64,000 bases of DNA from Hysterangium stoloniferum (taxonomy: Eukaryota > Basidiomycota > Agaricomycetes > Hysterangiales > Hysterangiaceae), in NCBI GenBank assembly GCA_015178975.1, contig WHVD01000214.1, positions 53,171 to 117,170 on the forward strand, given 5' to 3'. A program made the translations under genes and the position numbers. The notes below the pieces were generated by a model. That model made no database searches. It was given only the letters and a program-made list of their open reading frames with translations, and was not told the origin of the DNA. Positions 34,880 through 61,859 of the stretch are shown here, in pieces. Numbering within the stretch: position 1 is the stretch's first letter; the number at the start of each line of letters is the position of its first letter.

Positions 34880-35700
34880 CTCGTTGGTGCCATTTCGAAG
34901 GGAACAGTCGAACAGGCGAGAAAATAATGCCAACATCAGCGGCTCCCAACTCGGCTGCAAACAAATGCGCCTCAGCGTCTCCGGAGATGGTACGTTTCAA
35001 CCCCTTGTCAGTGGTTGTCTCGACTTCCTTCTTCAAATGAACCAGTCTTGCGATGAAAGCGCTGACGACGAGGGGAATATGGCCCTGCGACGTAGATGAT
35101 ACACGATTAGTTTGAGAAAGGGGATGTTAGGAATTGTCTTGTGGTGAAAGGGACTACTTCCATCTGTAACTGCTGCGAATGAAGCCGTCAGCTCTCCTGT
35201 GCCACCTCCGAACAGAAGTCTCCTTAAAGTTGGAATTTGAGTGCTGACGCTGGGTGAGCCGTTGGATGAGTATCCATCCAATCGGACCATGTAAAGCTGT
35301 GGTATCGCGGATTACAGCGCCCCTGTGAGGTGGTGTTAATACCGTAACGGATATAAGTACTGTGGTTAGCCGAGACTTACTTTCTCCAACTTGTGTGCTG
35401 CGCCGGTTAAGAAGAACGTACCGTACCCTGAGAACACACCAGAATGAGCCGGTACTGTTATGGCCGTCGTGACGCGAGGGATATACGCCAATCTGAACTG
35501 CAATGGCTAGATTAAGCATAGCAACGCCATGGTGAGTAAGGATAACCCACTCAGCATCACTCATAGCAAACTGTAACCCATCCTCCCTCCTGATAACAGA
35601 AGGATCGCCTCCCAAGATACTCAGCACAGAGCCAGTCAATGGATCAAATACGTCCCCATCCTGCGTCGTCGGTTCTTCCGGGATCTCTGAGACCTTTTGT
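34880..35700 (-). pseudogene. Amidohydrolase-family (metal-dependent hydrolase) relic
   Basis: Right to left on the minus strand: DGDVFDPLTGSVLSILGGD followed by PSVIRREDGLQFA; AHSGVFSGYGTFFLTGAAHKLEK; STQIPTLRRLLFGGGTGEL; GHIPLVV; TISGDAEAHLFAAELG followed by AADVGIIFSPVR. These are successive segments of a family of large basidiomycete amidohydrolase-domain proteins with a TIM-barrel fold. Phase changes between them fit introns, but the family's end (LPGPPL onward) and its beginning are missing, and the HxH metal motif is not visible. Substrate unknown for this family. Confidence 0.65.
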
Positions 35701-36061
35701 CACTGGATGGCAGCGAGAGCGTAAATTAGACGACCTTGAATCTGCAGCGGAGCCGGGAGGCGGTACCAAGCACGTTTGGGTGTTGAATAAATTACTTTGA
35801 AGGGTCGATGAGCTCTTTAATACTAGCGACGATAAATATCTCAACGACGTGAAGTTGATGGTCAGACGACAGTGCTATATCCTGTGGCTGCAGGATCGAG
35901 ACGGAGGTACACGATCTCAAAAAGGATCGGAACTGCATTTTTGTGCCATGAGATCCTTGCTTTTCTAGCTGCATCTGTGATCTCTAGGATCCTGGCCACC
36001 GACATACACCGAACTTGGTACGCCGCCGAAAGACGCGTGTGTACGTGTTAAATTTCATCCA

Positions 36062-38427
36062 TCTTTATCTCACTCCGGTCTGGTGAACAACATCATGTTG
36101 TGGTCTAAAGCGGGAGCCGGCTGCGACCACAGATGATAGACAGGCATCCATGGCAGCAGGCGCGGGCCAAGCGGGGCAGAGGTTAGAAAGGCCAGAGGAC
36201 TGGGAGAAGCGGTCTGGGAATGTGGCCATGAAGACCCGATGTTGTTATGAGATAATGGAAATGATAGGGCGAGGCTCAGTAGGGCTGTAGGTTGACTTGA
36301 GAGAGAGAACCTTGGGGGAGGCCTTGAGATTAAGATTGGGGGCGATGGAGAACATGAAGGTGAATTCAAAGCGAGAGGCAGCATCAGCAATGGAATTTTC
36401 CTTGGAAGGAAGCCATTTAGATTTGAAAAGGAAGTCCAGCTGGGATGCAAGCCCAAGGAATTGATGCAAGAGTTCCATCGTGGGAGATGAGCGGATAGAG
36501 AGCTTCGAAATAGTGGAATGTACATTTTGGTTATCAGTATGAAAGATAACATGATGGCCCCGGAAATGGGGACCCCAGCATAAAATAGCATGGATAATGG
36601 TGTAAAATTCTTTAACTTAGATGTCGGCACCTGAATAACAATGAGGAATTCGACAAGAAAACCATTGATTGCCGAATACTGCACCTGCACTCTTTGCACC
36701 ATTTGCATCAGTGAAGATGTGGAGGGTAGTTTGAGCAGGGGAGATGAAATGGACTCCATTCCAACCGGGGGCATAAGTAGCCCACCAAGTGATGTCGCGA
36801 CGTGCAGGGCGAGTAAGACGGCGGCGAACAAAAGGAGAGGTGCATGACATTGTGAAATTGAATAGTGAGCGCATAAAGGCTTTGGAGAAAGGGATGATCC
36901 GAGAGCAGAATTGAAGGAACCCGGTTAGTTCCTGTAACTCGTGGAGGGTGCAATGCATCTTGGCCTGCCATGAGAAGGTTTGACAGATGTCAGTTTACCT
37001 GTGGGTAGACGAGCCTCCATAGCCATGGAGTCAAGTTCAATGCCCAAGTATTCGAGGCAGGTTGATGGACCCTCAATCTTAGATTCTTGGAAACGGAGAC
37101 CAAGGGCATTTGCTAAGCCACAGGTCCATTCAAGAGCTGCATGGATAAGGGGAAGTGGGGTATGTGGCTTGAAAATCTGCAAAAAATCATCCAGATAATG
37201 CCGAATGAAGGCAGGAAGATGGCAGTGTAAGATCCAGTGGAGGCCCTCAGAGAATAAGTTGAATATATATGGAGCAGAGCACAGACCAAACATAAGGAAT
37301 AGCTCATAATAAAAATTTCCTGCCCAATGGAAACCCAGTAGTGGCCAATCAGCTGGTCGGATAGGAATGTGATGAAAGGCTTGTTCGAGATCCAATTTGA
37401 GCATGATCGATCCAGGGCCAGACTCAATGAGATCAGTGACAGCAGTCTGAAACATATCATACTTAATATGTGCTTCAGAATCTGGTATACCATCATTGAC
37501 GGAGGAGCCACGAGGCCAAGAGAGATGATGGATCCGGCGAAGTTTATGGGAATGCTTTCGTGCAGCGACACCCAGTGGTGAGGAGCGGAAATGAGGTAAA
37601 GGTGGGGATAGAAATGGACCTCGAAGTCACCCATGCATGAGCTGGGTGTCAATATCAGAAGCGATTGCATCGGGGAAGGAGGAAGCAGTAGGGATATTAG
37701 GACATGATTGGCTACATGCCCTGTCACCTCTGAAGCCGATGTCACAGCCATGGTCAATGATGTGCAGTAGTGCGACTACAAATGGTCGGTCCGGATAGTC
37801 CGCCAAGAAAAAGGCCCATGCATCTCGGTTGAGGGTAGAGGATACACGGGGCAGCATGGAGGCATCACCTGGAGATGCATTGATATGGGGATCGGAGTTG
37901 GGGCATGGCAGAGGATTCCCTCGAGGGGGGAATAGGTGAGCATGGGGAAGCAGGAAGTCGCCATCAGCAGGGGACAATGCTAGTGCAGAGGTCCAAGATG
38001 GTTGCACCTTTGACTCGATGGAGAGGAGCAGTGGCTCAGTGCTGCGAGGTAAAATAGTGGATGTGCAGACTTCGGGGGACAGAGAAGAGCTGTCAGTGGA
38101 TAGACCAGAGCTATCGTGGGAGGGAAAGACGTCCTCCAATGGGAAGCCGGGAATAAGTGGGCCAGCGATAATAGTAGGTGCTGCGGACTCGTCACAGAGG
38201 AGCAGATGTAAATGGTGTCCAAGCTTGGGAGGTGGTTGGGATGAGTGAGAGCCATCCTGGGAGGGAAAGACATCCTCCAATGGGAAGCCGGGAAGAAGTG
38301 GGCCTGTGATAGTAATGGGTGCTGTGGACTTGTCACAGAGGAGCGGACTTAAATGTTGTCCAAGCTCGGCACCAAGGAAGTGGGTGTGGCGGCATGTAGG
38401 CTTGAAGCGACGCGAGCGCTGGCACAC
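36062..38427 (-). mobile_element. DIRS-like (tyrosine-recombinase type) retroelement, degraded
   Basis: Upstream region (38427-37630) is Pro/Ser-rich gag-like and ends with WAFFLADYPDRPFVVALLH and GCDIGFRGDR. After one in-frame TGA (37627-37629) come SPLGVAARKHSHKLRRIHHL, then reverse transcriptase with LDLEQAFHHIP and the catalytic YLDDF (37185-37199). A frameshift near 37000 follows, then LHELQELTGFLQFCSR and the RNase H part with TDANGAKSAGAVF, TDNQNVHS and WLPSKENSIADAASRFEF. A TAA (36617-36619) interrupts it. RNase H ending in ADAASR is characteristic of DIRS/YR elements rather than Gypsy. The recombinase ORF expected next is absent. Confidence 0.85.
38100..38400. repeat. In-frame 141-bp tandem duplication in the gag-like region
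   Basis: Two copies 141 bp apart (47 codons) share GGGAAGCCGGGAA and GTCACAGAGGAGC. Both encode GFPLEDVFPS and LLCD-S-AP segments. The copies differ at about one base in ten. Confidence 0.85.
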
Positions 38428-50310: not shown

Positions 50311-50929
50311 TTATGCCTACTTGTTGCAAGGTGGAATTAAAGCTCTGGAAGAGTTTCAGAAAATACAAAAAAAAGTCTTGGCTAATCACCATATTCTTTT
50401 AAACTACAATTCTTCAGCAACACTTCCTCAAGCCACTCTAAATGCTACCATCTTTTCTCTATTTCCATCAGAGAAACACTTTTGGCTTACATACCCCAGT
50501 AGGCTTGATATTCAAGATTATATTTGTATATCACCACAAGACATTCCTCATGTGACTCCAAAGCAAATTCAAATCACTACAAATGCATCTAGTACACTCA
50601 AAAGACAAAATAGCAATCAATCTCATATATCAATCCAATCTGATGAGGATGATGAGGCATCCTATCCCCAACAGAAGTATTCTCAAAGATACCTTCAAAG
50701 AGTAGAGTCTTATAGTGAAGGCCAGGTGGTCATTCATAAAGCAAAGCCCGAAAGACTCCCAAAATCTATGTCTATGCCTGCCTTATCTCCTGAGATTCCT
50801 GGGATAGGTTCTAACGCTTCATTATTTCCAATCTCATGTCGCTGTGGACATACTGGTGATGGTAATGAGGAAGCAGCTCAAGGGTTTACCGATGACTACA
50901 TTCACTGTGATGAATGTGATAAATCCTAA
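50225..50929 (+). CDS. Unidentified protein cut off within a PHD-like finger
   Basis: A single 234-codon frame: a possible folded part (GGIKALEEFQKIQKKVLAN, FSLFPSEKHFWLTYPSRLD), a disordered Ser/Gln-rich acidic middle (SIQSDEDDEASYPQQ), then PISCRCGHTGDGN followed about 13 residues later by IHCDECDKS and stop. C-x-C-G plus C-x-x-C with that spacing is the first half of a PHD finger of the SET3/MLL5 type, where Trp normally follows the second pair. The stop codon lies within telomeric repeat sequence, so the natural C-terminus is lost. Start may be further upstream via an intron. Confidence 0.45.
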   Translation: MIHAMLQISNAKSHHKNEGESPRSGEIPSYAYLLQGGIKALEEFQKIQKKVLANHHILLNYNSSATLPQATLNATIFSLFPSEKHFWLTYPSRLDIQDYICISPQDIPHVTPKQIQITTNASSTLKRQNSNQSHISIQSDEDDEASYPQQKYSQRYLQRVESYSEGQVVIHKAKPERLPKSMSMPALSPEIPGIGSNASLFPISCRCGHTGDGNEEAAQGFTDDYIHCDECDKS

Positions 50930-50948
50930 CCCTAACCCTAACCCCTAA
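50925..50948 (+). repeat. Interstitial telomeric repeat (CCCTAA), 4 units
   Basis: CCTAACCCTAACCCTAACCC then CTAA. The orientation is that of a left chromosome end (CCCTAA reading inward to the right), i.e. the HEAT side would be the chromosome interior. It supplies the stop codon of the preceding frame. Confidence 0.9.
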
Positions 50949-51429
50949 TAACAAAGTTTTTTATAGATAATATTCACTTTTAAGAGCATATAACATAATA
51001 TAAAGCATTTCACATATAGTATTTGACATTTTTTAGAGCCTCTCATCCACAAGTACAGTTGTTTCAGTGTCGCGGCACTTCCTAATTAGGAAGGTAACTG
51101 CCGCGACATGCAAGTTTTTTGTGTAAACCTAGAACCCATGTCATTTAGAAGTTATATTTTATTATTTAAGACTTTAATAAGTTTATTTGAGAATTAATAA
51201 CACTCAAGGAAGGGTTAAAACTAAGTATGTGCCAATTAAAGTGGTGCACAAGGTATATTTCAGCAGGAAAATGTACACTAGATGTAACAGTGCTCATATT
51301 TTAAAGATATAATGTCAAATATTATTTTATTTTGGTAATTTTCAATACAAAATTGACGAAGTATCTACTGATTTTGAAAAAAGAAACATGTCGCGGCACT
51401 TGCGTGGCAGCGCGACACCCTGCACGGCA
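50949..51429. other. AT-rich spacer between telomeric tract and HEAT array
   Basis: About 480 bp, strongly AT-rich, no coding frame. Contains GTCGCGGCACTT twice (about 51069 and 51391). Confidence 0.5.
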
Positions 51430-54400
51430 CTTTCCTATAGCCCAAATTCGGCTGTGGTCAAATGTCAGCTGGAATCCAATCCCAAAATCACACATCGCAC
51501 CTTGCTTTGAAAAATTCCCCAGGACCGACACTGCGCTTGATAGAACGTGACAGTGAGAGTCCTTCAACAGTTTAACAATGGCGGGAATGACAGGCACAAT
51601 GGCCGCTCGAAATTCGGCTGTGGTCAAATGTCACCTGGACCCCCATCCCAGTATCACAGACCTACCCTCCTCTGAAACCGTCCCCAGGACCGATACTGCG
51701 CTTGATCGGACAAAATGGTGAGAGTCCTTTAACAGTTCAACAATGGCGGGAATGACAGACGCAATGGCTGCTTGAAATTCGGCTGTGGTCAAATGTAACC
51801 TGGACCTCCATCCCAATATCACAAACCCTACCTTGTTCTTAAACATACCCCAGGACCAATACTGCCCTTGATTGAACGTAAGAGGAAGAGTCCTTGAACA
51901 GTTCGACAATGGCAGGAATGACACCCGCAATGGCTGCTTGAAATTCGGCTGTGGTCAAATGTCAGCTGGAATCCCATCCCAATATCACACACCGCACCTT
52001 GCTCTGAAACCTTCCCCAGGACTGATACTGCCCCTGTTTCAACATCAGAGTCAGAGTCCTTCAACACTTCAAAAATGGCGGGAATGACACCCGCAATGGC
52101 CGCTCGAAATTCGGCTATGGTCAAATGTCAGCTGGAATCCCATCCCAGTATTATAAACATCACCTTGCTCTGAAACTGCCAACTGGATCCATGGAGGTAG
52201 ATACCCTCAGGCACAATCATAGTGTGCCAGGGGCCTGCTATCGCTATGGGAGTCTGGAGCATATAGTTAAAGACTACCCACATGTTTTTGATGTTCAGGC
52301 TATCTGTTATGACCGGACAATCCCGCCGGACTCCGGGCACTAACTCGTATGCCCCCACGCGCTACAAGCACCAATCGTCTGTTTATAGGATTTCCCGCCC
52401 GGACTCCATTACGTCAAGACTCGTTACGTTCGACCTCATTAAGACACATATCAGTCACCGGACTTCCCCTGGACCCCGTCTCTGTCTATGTCCGTCTTCG
52501 TCCCACACATCAGTCACCGGAACCCGCTCAGAATCCCATCACCGCTCTAATCGAGCCCCATTCCCGTTTTAGTCAAATGACCTGTCACAATTTAGGACTC
52601 CACTCCCGCTCCATTTCCCATTATGGGTTATGCTTTGTCACGATTCGGACTCCGCTCCGTTCCATCCCGTTCCTAACCCCAATTTGGTGTTTACTATTCC
52701 CGTTTTATGTTTTGCTCATTTCATCTCATTATTACTGGATTCGGTATGTCATGCATTCCACGGTCTATATAAACTGGCAGATGTTGTACATACAATCCAG
52801 TCAGAAAATTAGCTTAGATTCCCCCCAGTAATCTAATACATTTTCCTCTCTAAACCCTACTCTTATCAGACCACTCGCACTAGTCGGAGCCCACGGGCTC
52901 TGGCGCATCTATCTCTCTCGACTATCTCGATTCACGACTCACGACTCATGACCTACAACTCACGACCCACGAACCCCTGCCCGGACTCCCCAGGATTCCC
53001 GTCCACCTGTCTGAAATTGGACAACACGATCTAGTGAGGGTGCAGCCTATAAGCTGAAGCCAAGTCCTACTGGATATCCCGCGGGTTTCTCCGGAAACCC
53101 GCCCTGTGTGTGTATCCTAACAGTATTTTCTGACTTACACTCGCAGATTGTTTTAAACCTTCCCCAGGACCGATACTGTGCTTGATCGAACGTCAGAGTT
53201 AGAATCCTTCAATAGTTCAACGATGGCGGGAATGACATCCGCAATGGCCGCTCGAAATTCGGCTGTGGTCAAATGTCAGCTAGATACCCATCCCAGTATC
53301 ACACACCGCACCTTGCTCTGAAACCTTCCCCAGGACCGATGCTGCTCCTGTTCCGACGTCTGAGTAAGAGTCCTTCAACAGTTCAACAATGGCGGGAATG
53401 ACACCCGCAATGGCGGCTTGAAATTCGGCTGTGGTCAAATGTCAGCTGGATTCCCATCCCACGACCACACCCACCTTGCTCTGAAACCTTCCCCACCACC
53501 CATACTGTCTGTGATCCAGCGTAATAGTGAGAGTCCTTCAACAGTTCAACAATGGCGGGAATGACACCAGCAATGGCCGCTCGAAATTCGGCTGTGGTCA
53601 AATGTCAGCTGGATTCCTATCCCAGCTTCACAACACCGCACCTTGCTCTGAAACCTTCCCCAGGATGGATACTGCCCTTGATTGAACGTAATACTGGGAG
53701 TCCTTCAACAGTTCAACTATGGCGGGAATGACAGGGGCAATGGCCCCTCGAAATTCGGCTGTGGTCAAATATCAGCTGGATTCCCATTCCAGTATCACAC
53801 ACCACACCTTTCTCTGAAAATTTCTCCAAGACCGATACTGCCCTTGATCGAATGTAATGGTGAGAGTCCTTCAATAGTTCAACAATAGCGTGGTTGACAG
53901 GCGCAATGGCCGCACGCCATTTGGCTGTGGCTAAATGTCAGCTGGACTCCTATTCCAGTATCACACATCGCGCCTTGCTCTGAAACCTTCCCGAGGACCG
54001 ATACGGCGCTTGATTGAACGTCAGAGTTGGAGTCCTTCAACAGTTCAACAATGGCGGGAATGACACCCGCAATGGCCGCTCGACATTCGGCTGTGGTCAA
54101 ATGTCAGCTGGATCCCCATTCCATTATCCCACACTCCACCTTGCTTTGAAACGTTCCCAAGGACGGATACTGCCTGGGATCCCAACGTCAGAGTAAGAGT
54201 CCTTCAACAGTTCAACAATGGTGGGAATGACACCCGCAATGGCCACTCGAAATTCGGCTGTGGTCAATTGTCAGCTGGATTCACATCTCAATATCATATA
54301 CCGCACCTTGCTCTGAAACCTTCCCCAGGAGCGACACTGCCCATGATCGAACGTCAGAGTTAGAATCCTTCAACAGTTCAACAATGTCGGTAATAGTCTG

Positions 54401-56500
54401 GGAAATGGCGGTTCCAAAAGCGGCTACTAACAGTTTATCGATCCTGGCGTTTGACGGGGAGTTCGTGCACATACCAAACATATGTAGGGCACTGACCACC
54501 GTCTTCAGAGCGAACTTTCCTTTTTGCTCCTTGAGGTCAAATCTGGATAAGGTGAGGTAAAAATTCCGCGCTTTAAAGTGGAATGGAAATTAGTCAATGT
54601 ATAATACATGACCTGTCTTCACATACATGTTATTGCGCATTGAATGATCCTGATGGCTTCATGACGCGAAATAGAGTCAGTACTATGGAAGAGATCCACG
54701 GTGGACGACAGTCGACGGCCAGAGAGGTCTTGTATATCGGGCAGATTTGCTTGATTACCATGAAAGTGATCAGAATCACATATAAAAAAAGAGGGAATTG
54801 GCATGCGTTGAAGTGGGATGGAAAGTGACTCAGGCAACGTTGGTTGCGTGTCGGCCGACAATCCTACCGCCACACATATGGCAGCCCTGACGAGAGGGAG
54901 AAACCACCCTATGGAGATTTAAGAAAGATCCCTCATGAATATTTATTGGATTACCATGCTCTGAAGCCTTCCCTAGGGCCGATGCTGCCCTTGATCGAAC
55001 GTCAGTGTCAGAGGCCTTCAACAGTTCAACAATGGCGGGAATGACACCTGCAATAGCCGCTTGAAATTCGACTGTTGTCAAATGTCAGCTGGATTCCCAT
55101 CCTAGTATCACACACTGCGCCTTGCTCTGAAACCTTCCCTAGGATCGAGACCGCGCTTGATCGAACGTCAGAGTCAGAGTCCTTCAACAATTCAACAATG
55201 GCTGGAATGACACCCGCAATGGCCACTTGAAATTCGGCTGTGATCAAATGTCAGCCGGATTCCCATCCCATTATCAGACACCGCACCTTGCTCTGAAACA
55301 TTTCCCAGGACCGATACTGCGCCGGATCGAATGTCAGGATCAGAGTCCTTCAACAGTTCAACAATGGCGGGGATGACACCCCCAATGGCCGCTTGACATT
55401 CGGCTGTCGTCAAATGTCAGCTGGATTCCCATCCCAATATCACAAACCGCACCTTGCTCTGAAACGTTTCCCAGGACCGCTACTCCCCTTGATAGAATGT
55501 AATAGTCAGAGTCCTTTAACAGTTTAACAATGGCGGGAATGACACCCGCAATGGCCGTTCGAAATTCGGCTGTGGTCAAATATCAGCTGGATCCCCATCC
55601 CAGTGTCACACAAAGCACCTTGTTCTGAAACCGTCCCCAGGACCGATACTGCCCCTGATCGCATGTCAGAGTAAGAGTCCTTCAACAGTTCAACAATGGT
55701 GGGAATGACACCCGCAATGGCGGCTTGAAATTCGGCTGTGGTCAAATGTCAGCTGGATTCCCATCCCACGACCACACCCACCTTGCTCTGAAACCTTCCC
55801 CACCACCCATACTGTCTGTGATCCAGTGTAATAGTGAGAGTCCTTCAACAGTTCAACAATGGTGGGAATAACAGCCACAATGGTCGCTCGAAATTCGGCT
55901 GTAGTATCACACACCGCACCTTGCTCTGAAACCTTCCCCAGTACCGATGCTGCTCCTGTTCCGACGTCAGACTAAGAGACCTTCAACAGTTGAACAATGG
56001 CGGGAATGACAGGCGCAATGACCGTTCGAAATTCAGCGTGGGTCAAATGTTAGCTAGATTCCCACCCCACTATCACACACCGCACCTTGCTCTTAAACCT
56101 TCCCTAGGACCGAAACTGCGCTGGAGCAAACGTCAGAGCCAGAGTCCTTCAGCAGTTCAACAATGGTGGGAATGACACCCAAAATGGCCGCTCGAAATTC
56201 CCCTGTGGTCAAATGTCAGCTGGATTCCCATCCCATTATCACACCGCATCTTGCTCTGAAACCCTCCCCAGGACTGATACTGCACTTGAACGAACGTCAG
56301 AGTCAGAGTCCTTCAACAATCCAACAATGGCGGGAATGACACCCACAATGGCCACTCGAAATTCGGCTGTGGTCAAATGTCAGCTGGATTCCTATCCCAT
56401 TACCCCACACCGCACCTTGCTCTGAAAACTTCTCCAAGGTAGATACTGTGCGCGATCGAACCGAATAGTTGGAGTCTTTCAAAAGTCCCATCATTTTGGG
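51430..56500 (-). CDS. HEAT-repeat array gene(s) built from ~22 exon-intron units
   Basis: Minus strand. Each unit is 166 bp: a 117-bp exon encoding one 39-residue HEAT repeat (A-EFRAAIAGVIPAIVELLKD, then SDSDVRSGAVSVLGKVSEQ) and a 49-bp phase-1 intron (GTGCGG...TTTGACCACAG) with a CTGAC branch-like site. Unit frames start at 55247, 55413, 55579 and 55745, exactly 166 bp apart; similar units continue to 51445. Introns are as conserved as exons. Helix B varies mainly in residues after LKDS. A different segment (FDLKEQKGKFALKTVVSALH followed by MFGMCTNSPSNARID) joins unit 13 near 54420-54540, and 54540-54960 is non-HEAT, so there may be two genes. No ATG is certain. HEAT arrays act as protein-binding solenoids, in fungi often as sensor parts of NLR-like proteins; function here unknown. 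Confidence 0.7.
52225..52304 (+). pseudogene. Gypsy gag zinc-knuckle relic
   Basis: Encodes ACYRYGSLEHIVKDYPHVFD. The pattern CxxCGxxxHxxxxC of retroelement CCHC knuckles is present with two of the three Cys changed to Tyr (TGT/TGC to TAT/TAC). It sits directly before the LTR. Confidence 0.65.
52305..53122 (+). mobile_element. LTR (family A), 818 bp
   Basis: TGTTATGACCGG ... TATCCTAACA. Contains the TATA-like GTCTATATAAACTGG and the ATAAGCTGAAGC block near its end. Flanks CTATC/GTATT do not match perfectly. Confidence 0.75.
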
Positions 56501-58039
56501 AATGACACCAACGCTCCCAGTTGGGAATCTAGCTACAAACCGGTGAATGTTTAATCATTCTCCTCCCAACTTGGCATTTTCTTACCACATTCCAATAGTA
56601 ATCGTTATGCTATGCTCTCAATAGTATAAATATTTTACATGTACAGTAGTTAGCCTCAGTTTCAATCTCTTAGGAATCCCACTAAAACAAGTGTGATCTC
56701 CCCTGTCATTGAGTTATCTCCTCTTCACTTCATCTTTCTATATTATATCTTGTGTTTGGTAGCCTTGTTAGTGTTACCCTAACAGCTCCTATGTTAGAGT
56801 ACCAGATGATTACAAGGATATGAACAATTGTAGGGGCTGAAAGAATAACAATATAAACCAAGTATTGGGGTCACAAGGCAGTGGCTCTGTAGTCCAAGGT
56901 CCTGATGTTGGGATCCCAGAAAGGTTATCAAGGTAAGGCCAAGTTGTGGGGACCTGAAAGGGCAAGGATCAGTTAGTACAATAAGAACTAAAGACAATAC
57001 TTAGCTCAATTGACCAGAGGGCAAAAATACTAAGAGTTATAGGGTAAAGCGTCATAGCTGGCTGACAATATCTTTGAGGATATTAGAGAGGGAGTAAGGT
57101 GGCTGAAGACTAAATAGAGGTAATTTAAGTTAATATTAAAACTGAAGAATAGTAGCATACATGGTAGGAAACTTTATACTAAGGTGTAATGGATGAGCAG
57201 AGATCTGATCAAGGAAGCAAGAAGTAGTGATGGGTCAAAGGAAGCATGGGAAGGAGTAAGAATCAAACTAGAACTAAATACAATGTAACAAAAGTATTCT
57301 ACAGGGTATGAGATTGCAAATAACATGTTGAATTTAGGCTCACGCACTCCGCATTACCAAGTCCAGATGGCTACACCACACTGTACCCGGTTATACCACA
57401 CTGTACATGGATACACGAAGCTGCATCATTCCTGCCCAATATATGGTCTTACTACCATCATTTCCACACAATATAATCATGTACTATTTAATCCCAGACA
57501 CTCAAGACTCATACCTCAGTCAAGTATGTTATCACTACTTATTGTTGTTTCACATTTTCTTACCTAATGTAACATAGCATATTTGTTATAAATATAGTCG
57601 AGTCACTACTTTGTGTCGACTGAGCGTATTTGTTACATAACATTTACACATAGAACAGGTGACAGGAGAGCATCAGGATGGAGAAAAGATGGGACAATGA
57701 AAAGGGAAAAAGTGTCAGGGTGCCATGGGTAGTGACACCATGGTCAGAGGTACTGATAGTGAGATACCAGAGGGTAGGGAAGGTAAAACAAGGTTGCAGG
57801 GGGCCAAATGATTGGGATCATAACACTTTCCAAAACAACAAAACATTGGAATGATTCTTTGAGCCACTGTATGAGGTTCAAGCCTTTTGAAGTTTTCCAG
57901 ATTGTACTTTTGACTCAATTTCTCGTCAAGTTCTAGTAATGGGAGTAATAGTATGTTTGCAGCGCAGCAAGGCGGTAAGTCCGAGTAACCTTCATTATAT
58001 TCTACAGGAATAGAAGAGTTACGGAGCCATCAAAAGTGC
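56501..58039. other. Gap, no gene recognised
   Basis: AT-rich. The minus frame 57715-57918 (SQKYNLENFKRLEPHTVAQR) is open but unidentified. Confidence 0.4.
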
Positions 58040-58279
58040 GCGCGGTAGGACAAACATATTTATATCTGCGAGTCTGAAAGATGACAACTCACCACCATGC
58101 ATATGTCCACAGTCAGCAAAGTACTTCGTGATAAGACTGTTCGTCCACCAAGTTTTCACCCAGTTGATAGATCCGGTATACGCATCTAAGCCACAATGCA
58201 GGAAAAGGGCGAAGCGGCCCCAGTTGTACTGGCTGGTATTGTCTTGCAGCCCAATAGGGCCTTCTTTTGAATTGACCAT
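58040..58279 (-). pseudogene. Integrase-core-domain (DDE) protein fragment
   Basis: The minus strand encodes WGRFALFLHCGLDAYTGSIN followed by WVKTWWTN, LITKYFADC and HGG. This matches the first part of the integrase-core domain of a basidiomycete multicopy gene family (FGLYFHCGLDPYTGxxxWxK), where the D of GLD is the first catalytic acidic residue. The upstream DxxDKL and downstream TDxGTEN motifs are missing. Confidence 0.6.
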
Positions 58280-59747
58280 ATTTTCTTGTTAAGATGCCTG
58301 TGTCTCTATCATGTACCCGAGTATAGCAGACTCTCGCATTGCGCAGGGTACATTTATTGATGTAGCTACGCATATAAACACTATGAGCAATAGACTTCTC
58401 AAAGGGGAACACAATTGAAACATTGGAAGCAATGAAATAAGAAACAAGGGTATATAGTGGGACAATGGGAGCCAAAAGAACCAAGGGAACAGGTAGCGAA
58501 ACGAACTTGGATAATGCTCGAAATTCAACATTGCGGACCTCGACTGCACGCGGCTTCGACCGTCATCAAAGGAAATTCACAACCTCCTTAATTTGTTAGC
58601 CCATATGTCTCCAAGGTATGTGCTCGTGGTTGCTTGTGGCTGCTGGGTACTGTTGATAAGCAGTGAAAGACGGCGACGCTCATTGACCTCCCATATTTTT
58701 AGCCCATTATTTCTGGTAAATATCTAATGGTGACATCCACTCACTTGCAACCGAGAGCACTGTAATTCATTCTCAAGCTGGCGTGTGACGCTATCGAGCA
58801 CGGATATTCGCTGAAGGATGTCGGTGGTTCCCACTATCCAACAGCTAGGGAACTTTTTTTTTTTTCGTCGGATAGCTCCGGACGACCACCCGCTGTCTGT
58901 ATATTCTTGCGAGAACGAGTCCAGTTGATATACAAACTATGGGTTCCATCACCAGGCCACAGATATGTTCTGCCAGATAGAGGACCACAGTCCCGGACGA
59001 GCGTTGATGGCCAGAAACGGTAACCAAAGTATCACACCCACTTCATCCAGCTTCGTCTATATCGGAATGACAATGTAAAGAGCTGTGTGGTTGGGTAGAG
59101 GGAGAGCGTTAGCTCTCCGCGTGTGCGTGGGAAGACTCGCCGCTCGGGAGGGCAGGTATTCATTACGCATTAAACAGCTCCTGACATTGTCTAATCCTAT
59201 GTAATGTGATCAAAATATTACTCCGAAACCGATAATTACTGTATTAATGTCACTGCCTTTGAGAAAGGGTCAGGGTGGGTGGGTAAATTAATTAGATGAG
59301 AGTTATAGATGAATTATACGATGTCAGAGAGTGAAAAAAGAACTAAAGACTGTGGGATGACAGCGTCGTCGTAAGAGAAAAAAGGCGTGGTATTGCTTCA
59401 TACGCTCAGCTGGACGTTGAGTGCCGAACTACTCCCGGCAAGCTAGGGATCGTGCGGTACTATTCTCATACTGGGAAGTCACCCACTCACGTTCTTCTCT
59501 AAGTTGTAAACATTACCGCATAGTTCTCTAATAAAAATTACGATATAATACAGATCAATATAATTTCGTCCGTGAAGTTCATCGAATCTGCGCTCAAGAA
59601 GGTAAGAACGTCTAGAGGCCGATAATATATTGAAACTGTAGTAATAATTGGGATGATTAGATCGTAGACAGCATATAGAACAATTAATCAATAAAACATG
59701 CTGTTTCCAGATAGGGATGAAGGTGGAATGGAAATCATTGCCTGATG
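58280..59747. other. Gap with a short perfect hairpin
   Basis: No supported gene. A T13 run lies near 58853-58865, and GGAGAGC-GTTA-GCTCTCC at 59101-59118 is a perfect 7-bp stem. Confidence 0.45.
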
Positions 59748-61859
59748 CTATGCACCTGCACGGGTTGTTTTAACCCGCCTTTTTTTCTCCGCCTTGGGCA
59801 TTTTTGTTTTCCGCTTTTCTCTAGCAGCCTCTTTTACGGCTTTTTTCCGCTCCTAGAACAACCCAGAAAATGAGCACTGAACAGTTGGGAACCATGTTTA
59901 ATACCTTTTTAGCGTCCTTATCCTCATTCCTATGACCTCTAGGTCGACGATCCTGGATTGTGGCATCGTCTCGCCCCTCTTCTCCGGAACTATACTGGTC
60001 ATCCTCTTCAACGTCGTCATCATCCGTATTATCTTGACTGTCAGCTCCCAATCCAGAGACTTCCTCTGGGAAACTATTGATTGGTGTATTTATCTGCATA
60101 TTCTTTAAACCGTCTGTGGCCCCGACGACCCCAATTATATTTGAATATATTAGGCTCTCGCCTCTACCTCGGGAAACTAGGTCAACATCCCATTACGGGT
60201 CATACACTTCATTCAGAGTCCTCGGGATATAGGATTTCAAAAAAACTTTATCGTCCGCATGCTGCTTTTCCTTTGCGAGCTCGTGAAACTCATCTTCATC
60301 ATTGTTATTGATGCCTTTCGCCTTTCGCGAGTGTTTCCGCAAGGAGTGTTTCTAACCATGCTGCCGCTGCTGCGTCCTCGTTTACACCCTTGCCAATCAC
60401 GAACTCGAAAGCTCTCCGGAGACCAATGCACTGCACCCCTCTTCATCCAAAAAACTCTTCCACGTTTTTAAGATCTGTCAGGAGAAAATCGAAAGCAGAT
60501 GGGTGGTCTTGTTCGACACTTTGGCCGACATCGATGATATATAGTTGCGATTCGTGGTAGAGTATGTTATATTCTGACAAATCAGCATGCACCAACTTAC
60601 ACTGATGAAAAATTTTCCGGACAGTCAGTAAAAGACCCTTGTACAGGTTTGAAAACTGGTCTTCAGGAATTTAGACGACGGGATGCCCTAATATAACGTT
60701 ATAATTTAAGCTGAAAGTGAGCATAATGCTCACCATCCATCCCTATCTCCCAAAAAGGCCATAACGAGGACGTTTTCACGCACTTCGATAGGTTCAGGAC
60801 AAGGAATCCCAGCAGTCACGAGACGTTTCAAATTTCGCATTTCCTTTTCTGCCCATAACCTGACCATCTTCTTTGGGTTGTGTTTGCTGTAGCCACGTCG
60901 AAAGCGGCGTTCGCCACTCACGTACCGATCTCGATCTTTAAATATCAGAATGGAGGTCTTAAAAATCTTGAGGGCGACATGGGTCCTCTCGGGTGTGTAC
61001 GCATGATATACATTAGCCTAATGATTTTATATTGTTCAACAATCGGATTTAGAGATTAAAACAAGCTAGTTACCTCTTTTCCTGTACTGACACATCCGTT
61101 GACCTCACTAATTAGGCCCCTTCCGATCATCTTAAATAGAATCAGTCTAGTTCGGGGATCCAACACTTGTTCATTAGTTGCTCTATCCGATTTGTCCTTC
61201 ATATTTCCACGCTCGCTCGGGCCTTTCTTATTGCTGGATATACCCATGAGACCGTACGGCTGGTCGATTTGGGCCAGACGAGACGAACACTTTGATAAAG
61301 CGACAAGCTGATCTGAAGTTTTCTGTGGTATCGAGGGCGCAGATGCGGGATCACGTAAACGGTTTACAGCCGGAAGAGGGACGATACGGGTTGGGACAGC
61401 GATGGAATTGGCTACACTGGAAGCAGGTGGGTCTGATGTTCCAGAACGGGCAGCGACATGTTGTCGTAGACGATTATATTGTTTTGTAAAGTCTATAATT
61501 GTTTTCAAAGTCGAGGTAAAAAGAGTGGAGCCATAAAGTACACACCTCGTTCGGCTATTTCCCAGTCTTCATCGTCCACACTTGTTAATCTGTTTGTCTC
61601 CCAGTAATCTTCATATTCTTCGCTCTCTAACACTTCATTGTCGGCTTCCTCTTCTTCAGACCAGTCCAATATTTCCTCATCAACGAAAGCCTGTCCTTCT
61701 CGAGGATCGAATGCCGGTGCTTCTGTTAGTGTAGTTGATGTTGTGACGGTGGATGTTTGACGTCCTGGGTACAGCTAATTGATCTGCTGCCACTGGTGTA
61801 TCCTCATCTGCATCGTCAAACTGTCCGTTTACGATAATTTCGACAACAGGATGTGTCAT
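59748..61859 (-). CDS. RIO1: RIO1 serine/threonine kinase, with apparent lesions
   Basis: Atypical kinase/ATPase needed for 40S subunit maturation. Start near 61859 ([13 protein letters not shown]), acidic N-terminus ([20 protein letters not shown]), then [15 protein letters not shown], an intron, ANVYHAY (P-loop), [59 protein letters not shown], catalytic loop [12 protein letters not shown] (60569-60590), metal motif [27 protein letters not shown], and the basic tail [16 protein letters not shown] ending at 59748. Lesions: the exon after the intron 60688-60733 runs into a TGA at 60663-60665 unless one base is added, and a TAA at 60193-60195 follows NEVYDP. A third frame problem may exist near 61,780. 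Confidence 0.85.

Follow-up and report, generated by a model that had tools for sequence, protein, structure and literature searches.

The hnwd genes of Podospora anserina (het-d, het-e and het-r), which encode NACHT-WD40 proteins of allorecognition, form a dispersed family whose repeats evolve in concert within and between loci, as the excerpts available of the original papers describe (PMC1805685, PMC2873952). Four surface codons of the WD40 repeat are under diversifying selection (PMC1805685, in part). Fungal NOD-like receptors (NLRs) with highly conserved TPR, ANK or HEAT repeats, such as Podospora Pa_6_7270 (sesB-like/NACHT/TPR(HEAT)), likewise carry near-identical helical repeats with diversifying sites, and a truffle family of NACHT-ankyrin proteins is diversified through codon-sized mini exons and alternative splicing (both from the accessible part of PMC4986451). 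This study concerns a stretch of 64,000 nucleotides from Hysterangium stoloniferum (assembly GCA_015178975.1, contig WHVD01000214.1, positions 53,171 to 117,170; hereafter the window, with positions counted from its first letter), which holds an array of 166-bp units, each made of one exon and one intron. On balance, this array is probably a dead and truncated member of a large, dispersed family of genes that combine DUF6535 with diversifying, modular HEAT repeats.

The unit was found 23 times in the window, on the minus strand between 56,532 and 51,452. It consists of a 117-bp exon, which encodes 39 residues forming one HEAT repeat (a typical one reads AEFRAAIAGVIPAIVELLKDSDSDVRSSAVSVLGKVSEQ), followed by a 49-bp phase-1 intron. 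An earlier note on this DNA had proposed the period, the division into exon and intron and the HEAT identity, all of which were borne out. Two adjacent window exons match Pfam HEAT (PF02985) with an expectation value (E) of 3.7e-12 and 45.7 bits, and seven spliced repeats of a relative on C517 match it with E 1e-30 and 103.3 bits, the cut-off being 23.5 bits. The note had also counted at least 20 consecutive units; the number holds, but the units are not consecutive, as they fall into three groups of 10, 8 and 5, with a conserved middle block of 529 bp between the first two and an insertion of 978 bp between the last two.

The window array belongs to a family. The genome (111 Mb, 554 contigs) was searched by scoring the best candidates, so that the counts are lower bounds: at least 521 matches to the exon and at least 40 to the middle block, which marks one gene each. 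Twenty further loci were fetched, and 21 loci including the window were read out of the at least 40. In the family layout, some 2 kb of N-terminal sequence precede array A, a middle block of roughly 510 bp separates it from array B, and some 500 bp of C-terminal sequence come last. Of the 21 loci, 17 have the N-terminal block, complete or clipped at the end of the fetched range, and 18 have the C-terminal block; with the window as query, 19 of the 20 fetched relatives showed the middle block at its place between arrays A and B, C224 giving no match. The N-terminal exons of two members match DUF6535 (Pfam PF20153; E 1.3e-32 and 5.8e-34), a family of unknown function in Pfam, and three hydrophobic regions are found in each of 13 aligned DUF6535 exons. 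In 29 of the 40 middle-block loci, this domain was matched 2.0-6.5 kb upstream in the same orientation. The 16 loci with DUF6535 and both arrays have 24-45 repeats per gene, with 10-26 units in array A and 14-21 in array B. Many of the at least 75 DUF6535 matches in the genome do not lie upstream of the 40 middle blocks, for example several on C79 and others on C545 and C212.

As in hnwd, the family is dispersed, its repeats are exchanged within and between loci, and a few codons per repeat diversify, as measured here by a counting method with a bootstrap over loci. Unit number varies between loci, whereas in the repeat-bearing NLRs it varies between strains (PMC4986451, in the part available). 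An hnwd protein is a WD40 propeller with a NACHT domain; the present proteins combine HEAT with DUF6535, and each repeat is a separate exon. By this comparison, the DUF6535-HEAT family is one that works like hnwd but is not an hnwd member, since the repeat, the N-terminal domain and the exon structure all differ. The truffle genes resemble it as fungal repeat proteins diversified via exon structure, but they use codon-sized exons and alternative splicing, while here whole-repeat exons are involved and turnover, as far as seen, is at the DNA level.

The earlier note had favoured an NLR-type sensor, in which the HEAT repeats would be the ligand-binding end of a NACHT protein. Homogenised, diversifying repeats are indeed typical of fungal NLRs, and one Podospora NACHT gene carries HEAT-type repeats (PMC4986451, from the excerpts at hand). 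This idea was not upheld: a NACHT domain on the same strand within 15 kb was found at none of the 40 loci, no search for NB-ARC having been made, and DUF6535 lies upstream in 29 of them instead. Among the matches listed, neither DUF6535 nor NACHT (at least 38 in the genome) was found on the contig of the window (C129). We regard a NACHT-type sensor of this kind as highly improbable. The repeat identity criterion for those NLRs is above 85% over 100 residues, according to the available text of PMC4986451; here the mean amino-acid identity between units is 0.68-0.85 per locus (17 loci), most loci are below 85%, and the many units that have an at least 85% identical partner were counted per unit rather than over runs of 100 residues. 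At C24:621283, on the minus strand, NACHT is matched weakly (25 bits, or 26.7 when its neighbours are included), 6.6 kb from the middle block of a DUF6535-HEAT gene that runs on the opposite strand.

With regard to splicing, the units of the family are well preserved. Among the 462 contiguous units of the 17 well-kept loci, 453 have an open exon bounded by GT..AG, a count that becomes 474 of 495 with the damaged C346 and C224 included. Thirteen of the 21 loci have all their contiguous exons open, nine of them with every GT and AG intact as well. The analyses of variation, codons and intron conservation leave out C346, C224, the window and its duplicate on C17, together with the opening unit of every locus and, from each array, the final, non-contiguous unit. 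Of the resulting 446 units, 437 keep their net exon length, seven differ by 3, 6 or 9 bases and two by one base; 128 of the introns have indels, with a net loss of two bases in 90. The five most conserved of the 49 intron positions are G1 (445 units), T2 (443), A36 (446), A48 (444) and G49 (445). A36 sits thirteen bases before the intron end within a CTGAC motif, which we take to fit a branch point. The conserved donor, A36 and acceptor, together with the kept frame, provide strong sequence evidence for splicing. An alternative exon of 126 nt, ending at a GT nine bases downstream, was considered and rejected: the first GT is kept in 490 of 495 units, compared with 445 for the downstream one, and gaps at intron positions 6-7, present in 19% of units, would shift its frame. 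As the two-base losses lie before the alternative donor, the frame of the 126-nt exon would be broken.

Given one 117-nt exon per HEAT repeat in 1-1 phase, unequal exchange of units, block duplication or conversion would keep the reading frame. The earlier note had asserted that units can be gained or lost without disturbing the frame, and this is supported for the family by the 1-1 phase of the exons and by unit numbers that differ between related loci. Exchange of whole exon-plus-intron units is thus very likely to be frame-neutral.

The intron in every unit offers an internal comparison between exon and intron, which is missing from intronless repeat arrays. In the family, between-unit divergence is lowest in introns (0.127), higher at synonymous sites (0.152) and highest at nonsynonymous sites (0.163). 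Separate alignment of the two parts in the window gave a mean pairwise divergence of 0.200 for exons and 0.166 for introns (19 of 23 units; units 3, 9, 17 and 18 were dropped), in agreement with the expectation that introns would be at least as similar as exons. For 52% of units the nearest neighbour comes from the same locus, compared with 5.9% by chance. For inner units, compared by exon, this was the case for 231 of 413, the neighbour being in the other array for 87 of these, and lags of 1 to 7 were the commonest within an array. Units at the array ends match the same position in another locus: 15 of 16 for the first unit of array A, 12 of 16 for its last, 15 of 16 for the first of array B and 14 of 16 for its last (C533 was also left out of this test). 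Such a pattern is as expected if units are exchanged unequally and converted in the interior of arrays whose edges are protected.

The arrays also appear to be more dynamic than their surroundings. Between C2c and C200, the DUF6535 exon is 99.0% identical, while a unit of one locus is on average 94.8% identical to its closest counterpart in the other, and units are less alike than the DUF6535 exon in all 12 of the locus pairs listed (12 of 78). Since the units are more diverged than this exon, the arrays turn over faster than the flanks. Window units 4 and 15, which lie on opposite sides of the middle block, are 95.7% identical and have a shortened intron in common. In array B of locus L011 (C157), groups of three or four successive units that share their order of residues 22-24 were seen by eye to recur in tandem, which is a sign of recent block duplication. 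The exchange of units takes place inside single arrays, from one array to the other of a locus, and between loci, and the array-end units retain position-specific sequence. The claim that units are copied and diversify is accordingly supported for the family.

For the codon analyses, units with exon indels were removed, leaving 429 of 446. Variability is highest directly after LKDS in these 429 units of 17 relatives, precisely where the earlier note had located it. Stop-creating variants account for 23 of 4,742 exon variant occurrences, compared with an expected 3-4%. The ratio of nonsynonymous to synonymous variation per site (pN/pS), a counting measure on non-independent units, is 1.07 for the units (bootstrap over loci 0.96-1.17), 0.38 for the DUF6535 part and 0.57 for the remainder of the DUF6535 exon (13 loci). 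The unit-wide value hides two opposite regimes, a constrained core and a set of diversifying sites. Core sites 3, 11, 18 and 37 have a pN/pS of 0.22-0.27 (0.2-0.4 across the core), and sites 9, 16, 22, 23, 24 and 32 reach 2.0-3.1, with residues 22-24 at 2.2-3.1. Twelve sites were bootstrapped by resampling loci: the interval is above 1 for each of these six, as well as for site 28 (1.30-2.06) and site 20 (1.04-1.41), but not for sites 13, 27, 34 and 35. When the ten most variable sites were chosen from half of the loci, their median pN/pS in the other half was 1.91 (1.61-2.25, 40 splits), and the 20 least variable sites gave 0.58. The 429 units comprise 109 distinct triplets at residues 22-24 and 403 distinct 39-residue sequences, and a single 11-residue core pattern occurs in 207 of them.

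Relaxed drift with homogenisation is a competing explanation. Here the array is a conversion-prone stretch in a real gene, and variation at residues 22-24 and elsewhere is tolerated in unconstrained loops rather than favoured by selection. The interval around the overall pN/pS includes 1, the value falls to 0.87 for nearest-neighbour pairs and to 0.61 for the 39 closest pairs, and the three codon positions are about equally variable (0.151, 0.166 and 0.164). Tolerance alone, however, is capped at 1 per site, whereas at sites 9, 16, 22, 23, 24, 28 and 32 the whole bootstrap interval exceeds this value, as does the median of the held-out sites; there is, in addition, clear selection on stop variants, frame and splice sites. 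Drift therefore seems doubtful to us, although it is the strongest of the competing explanations. A diversifying modular family agrees better with the site-specific excess: by these counts, selection maintains DUF6535, the core of the HEAT repeat, the reading frame and the signals for splicing, and favours amino-acid change in the inter-helix turn and at a few helix positions.

The closest solved sequence to the repeats is that of PP2A PR65 (E 1e-19), with Vac8 ranking lower. The repeats of PR65 are divergent, and it is not known to have a membrane domain. Judged by the sequence match to PR65, the turn that joins the two helices of a repeat contains residues 22-24. In PR65, which has 15 HEAT repeats, the intra-repeat loops form a ridge that carries the B56 subunit and SV40 small t, as stated in the portion available of PMC1945078, and it is in this turn, at the place of residues 22-24, that the likeness lies. 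Because the PR65 intra-repeat loops are a ligand ridge and residues 22-24 sit in the equivalent turn, we infer a binding array. In this reading, an intact member encodes a membrane domain (DUF6535), followed by two arrays with 24-45 HEAT repeats in all, on either side of the middle block, and by the C-terminal part. The protein could provide a modular surface for binding, anchored in the membrane, and the turnover of repeats would reset its specificity. It is about an even call whether such a surface exists and serves, as would then be probable, the recognition of non-self or of a partner.

The likeness to PR65 and, at a lower rank, Vac8 can also be read as pointing to a structural scaffold, that is, a HEAT spring or scaffold tethered to the membrane, for which length would be the property of most importance, with a family that expands by gene duplication and has no role in recognition. 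The range of unit numbers (24 to 45 in 16 loci) and the segmental duplication seen for the window and C17 fit this explanation. Selection on length would nevertheless leave the site-specific amino-acid excess unexplained, as well as the 109 triplets in 429 units, and we consider a pure scaffold unlikely. A bolder version of the binding surface is slightly less probable still: the at least 40 loci, mostly anchored by DUF6535, would form a recognition repertoire of interchangeable exons, with 24-45 frame-neutral HEAT exons in each complete locus and residues 22-24 as a specificity code for each repeat, and skipping or choice of exons in RNA would add further forms. Because every unit is a 1-1 phase exon, unequal exchange in DNA and exon choice in RNA could both enlarge the repertoire; if this were true, exon choice would give many receptor forms from one gene.

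Several observations weigh against a diversifying, DUF6535-anchored binding array. DUF6535 was not matched upstream at 11 of the 40 loci, and the AlphaFold model of its exon is poor (13 relatives; mean predicted local distance difference test score (pLDDT) 50.2, predicted template modelling score (pTM) 0.39). Residues 9 and 16, on the first helix, vary too. One exon is not open in each of four of the 17 well-kept loci. The correlation between exon and intron distances within loci is modest (r 0.406; 200 permutations gave a mean of 0.325 and a maximum of 0.399) and is weak in the window alone (r 0.118). The low pN/pS of close pairs and the non-independence of the units count on the same side.

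The window copy itself differs from its relatives. A remnant shared with them, made up of the end of an upstream exon and its intron, lies upstream of the first unit at 56,533-56,606, and similarity to relatives stops beyond it. On the minus strand, there follow array A with ten units (units 0-9; 54,953-56,532), the middle block, which is matched in relatives (54,424-54,952), the first eight units of array B (units 10-17; 53,142-54,423), the last of which is cut by the insertion (52,177-53,154, no strand assigned), and the last five units (unit 18, partial, and units 19-22; 51,452-52,192), after which the C-terminal block seen in the relatives is absent. Unit spacing within blocks is 137-167, with a single exception of 77 at a truncated unit. 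The insertion has no counterpart in the C17 duplicate; its two flank matches overlap by 4 bases there, which may reflect a short target duplication or chance. The limit at 56,606 recurs in many loci and resembled the border of a mobile element with sharp ends. This was ruled out, as most relatives share about 2 kb more upstream, and the border is the truncation point of the window copy.

Of the 19 contiguous units in the window, 12 combine an open exon with an intact GT and AG. Stops occur in units 2, 3, 17, 18 and 20, of which units 17 and 18 flank the insertion and are read on into it; a frameshift lies in unit 11, the acceptor of unit 2 is altered and unit 3 has a shortened intron (spacing 137). 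Donors are altered in units 1, 8 and 12, two of the three, including that of unit 12, now being GC. GC donors can be functional. Because both gene ends are missing, with no upstream exons beyond 56,606 and no C-terminal block, and because stops, a frameshift and damaged splice sites are present, the window copy is, in our reading, a truncated and dead pseudogene of a live-looking family, in contrast to the active gene that the earlier note had assumed.

The C17 copy is 98.8% identical to the window over 6,869 bp, upstream flank included, and 95.7% identical over 1,739 bp past the insertion, both lengths being bounded by the end of the fetched piece. The lesions of units 1, 2, 3, 8, 11, 12 and 20 are also present in it; the copy was therefore already broken before the duplication. 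The duplication is segmental, since window positions 50,444-60,000, that is, the array copy and its flanks, recur on C17 (locus L025). The case serves as a warning that an array read alone can be the dead copy of a live family.

Elsewhere in the window, a few tandem TTAGGG-like copies of telomere type were observed on the minus strand at about 50,917-50,943, internal to the contig. Overlapping open frames are clustered at 35,154-38,427 on the minus strand, and one stretch of them resembles a reverse transcriptase by eye. Rfam and tRNA scans of the window gave no match.

Concerted evolution of repeats and diversifying selection on them are already known, and the DUF6535-HEAT genes with one exon per repeat are apparently new as far as searched. 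In the open-licence literature searched, DUF6535, PF20153 and IPR045338 turn up in one paper, within a transcript table, and the titles and abstract openings of the papers listed describe no fungal HEAT family with one repeat per exon. The hundreds of natural unit variants are a resource for testing recognition. Diversifying HEAT turns, in combination with conserved splice signals, frame and membrane domain, point to a recognition function for this DUF6535 subfamily, which would suggest that modular sensors can evolve in fungi with no NLR core.

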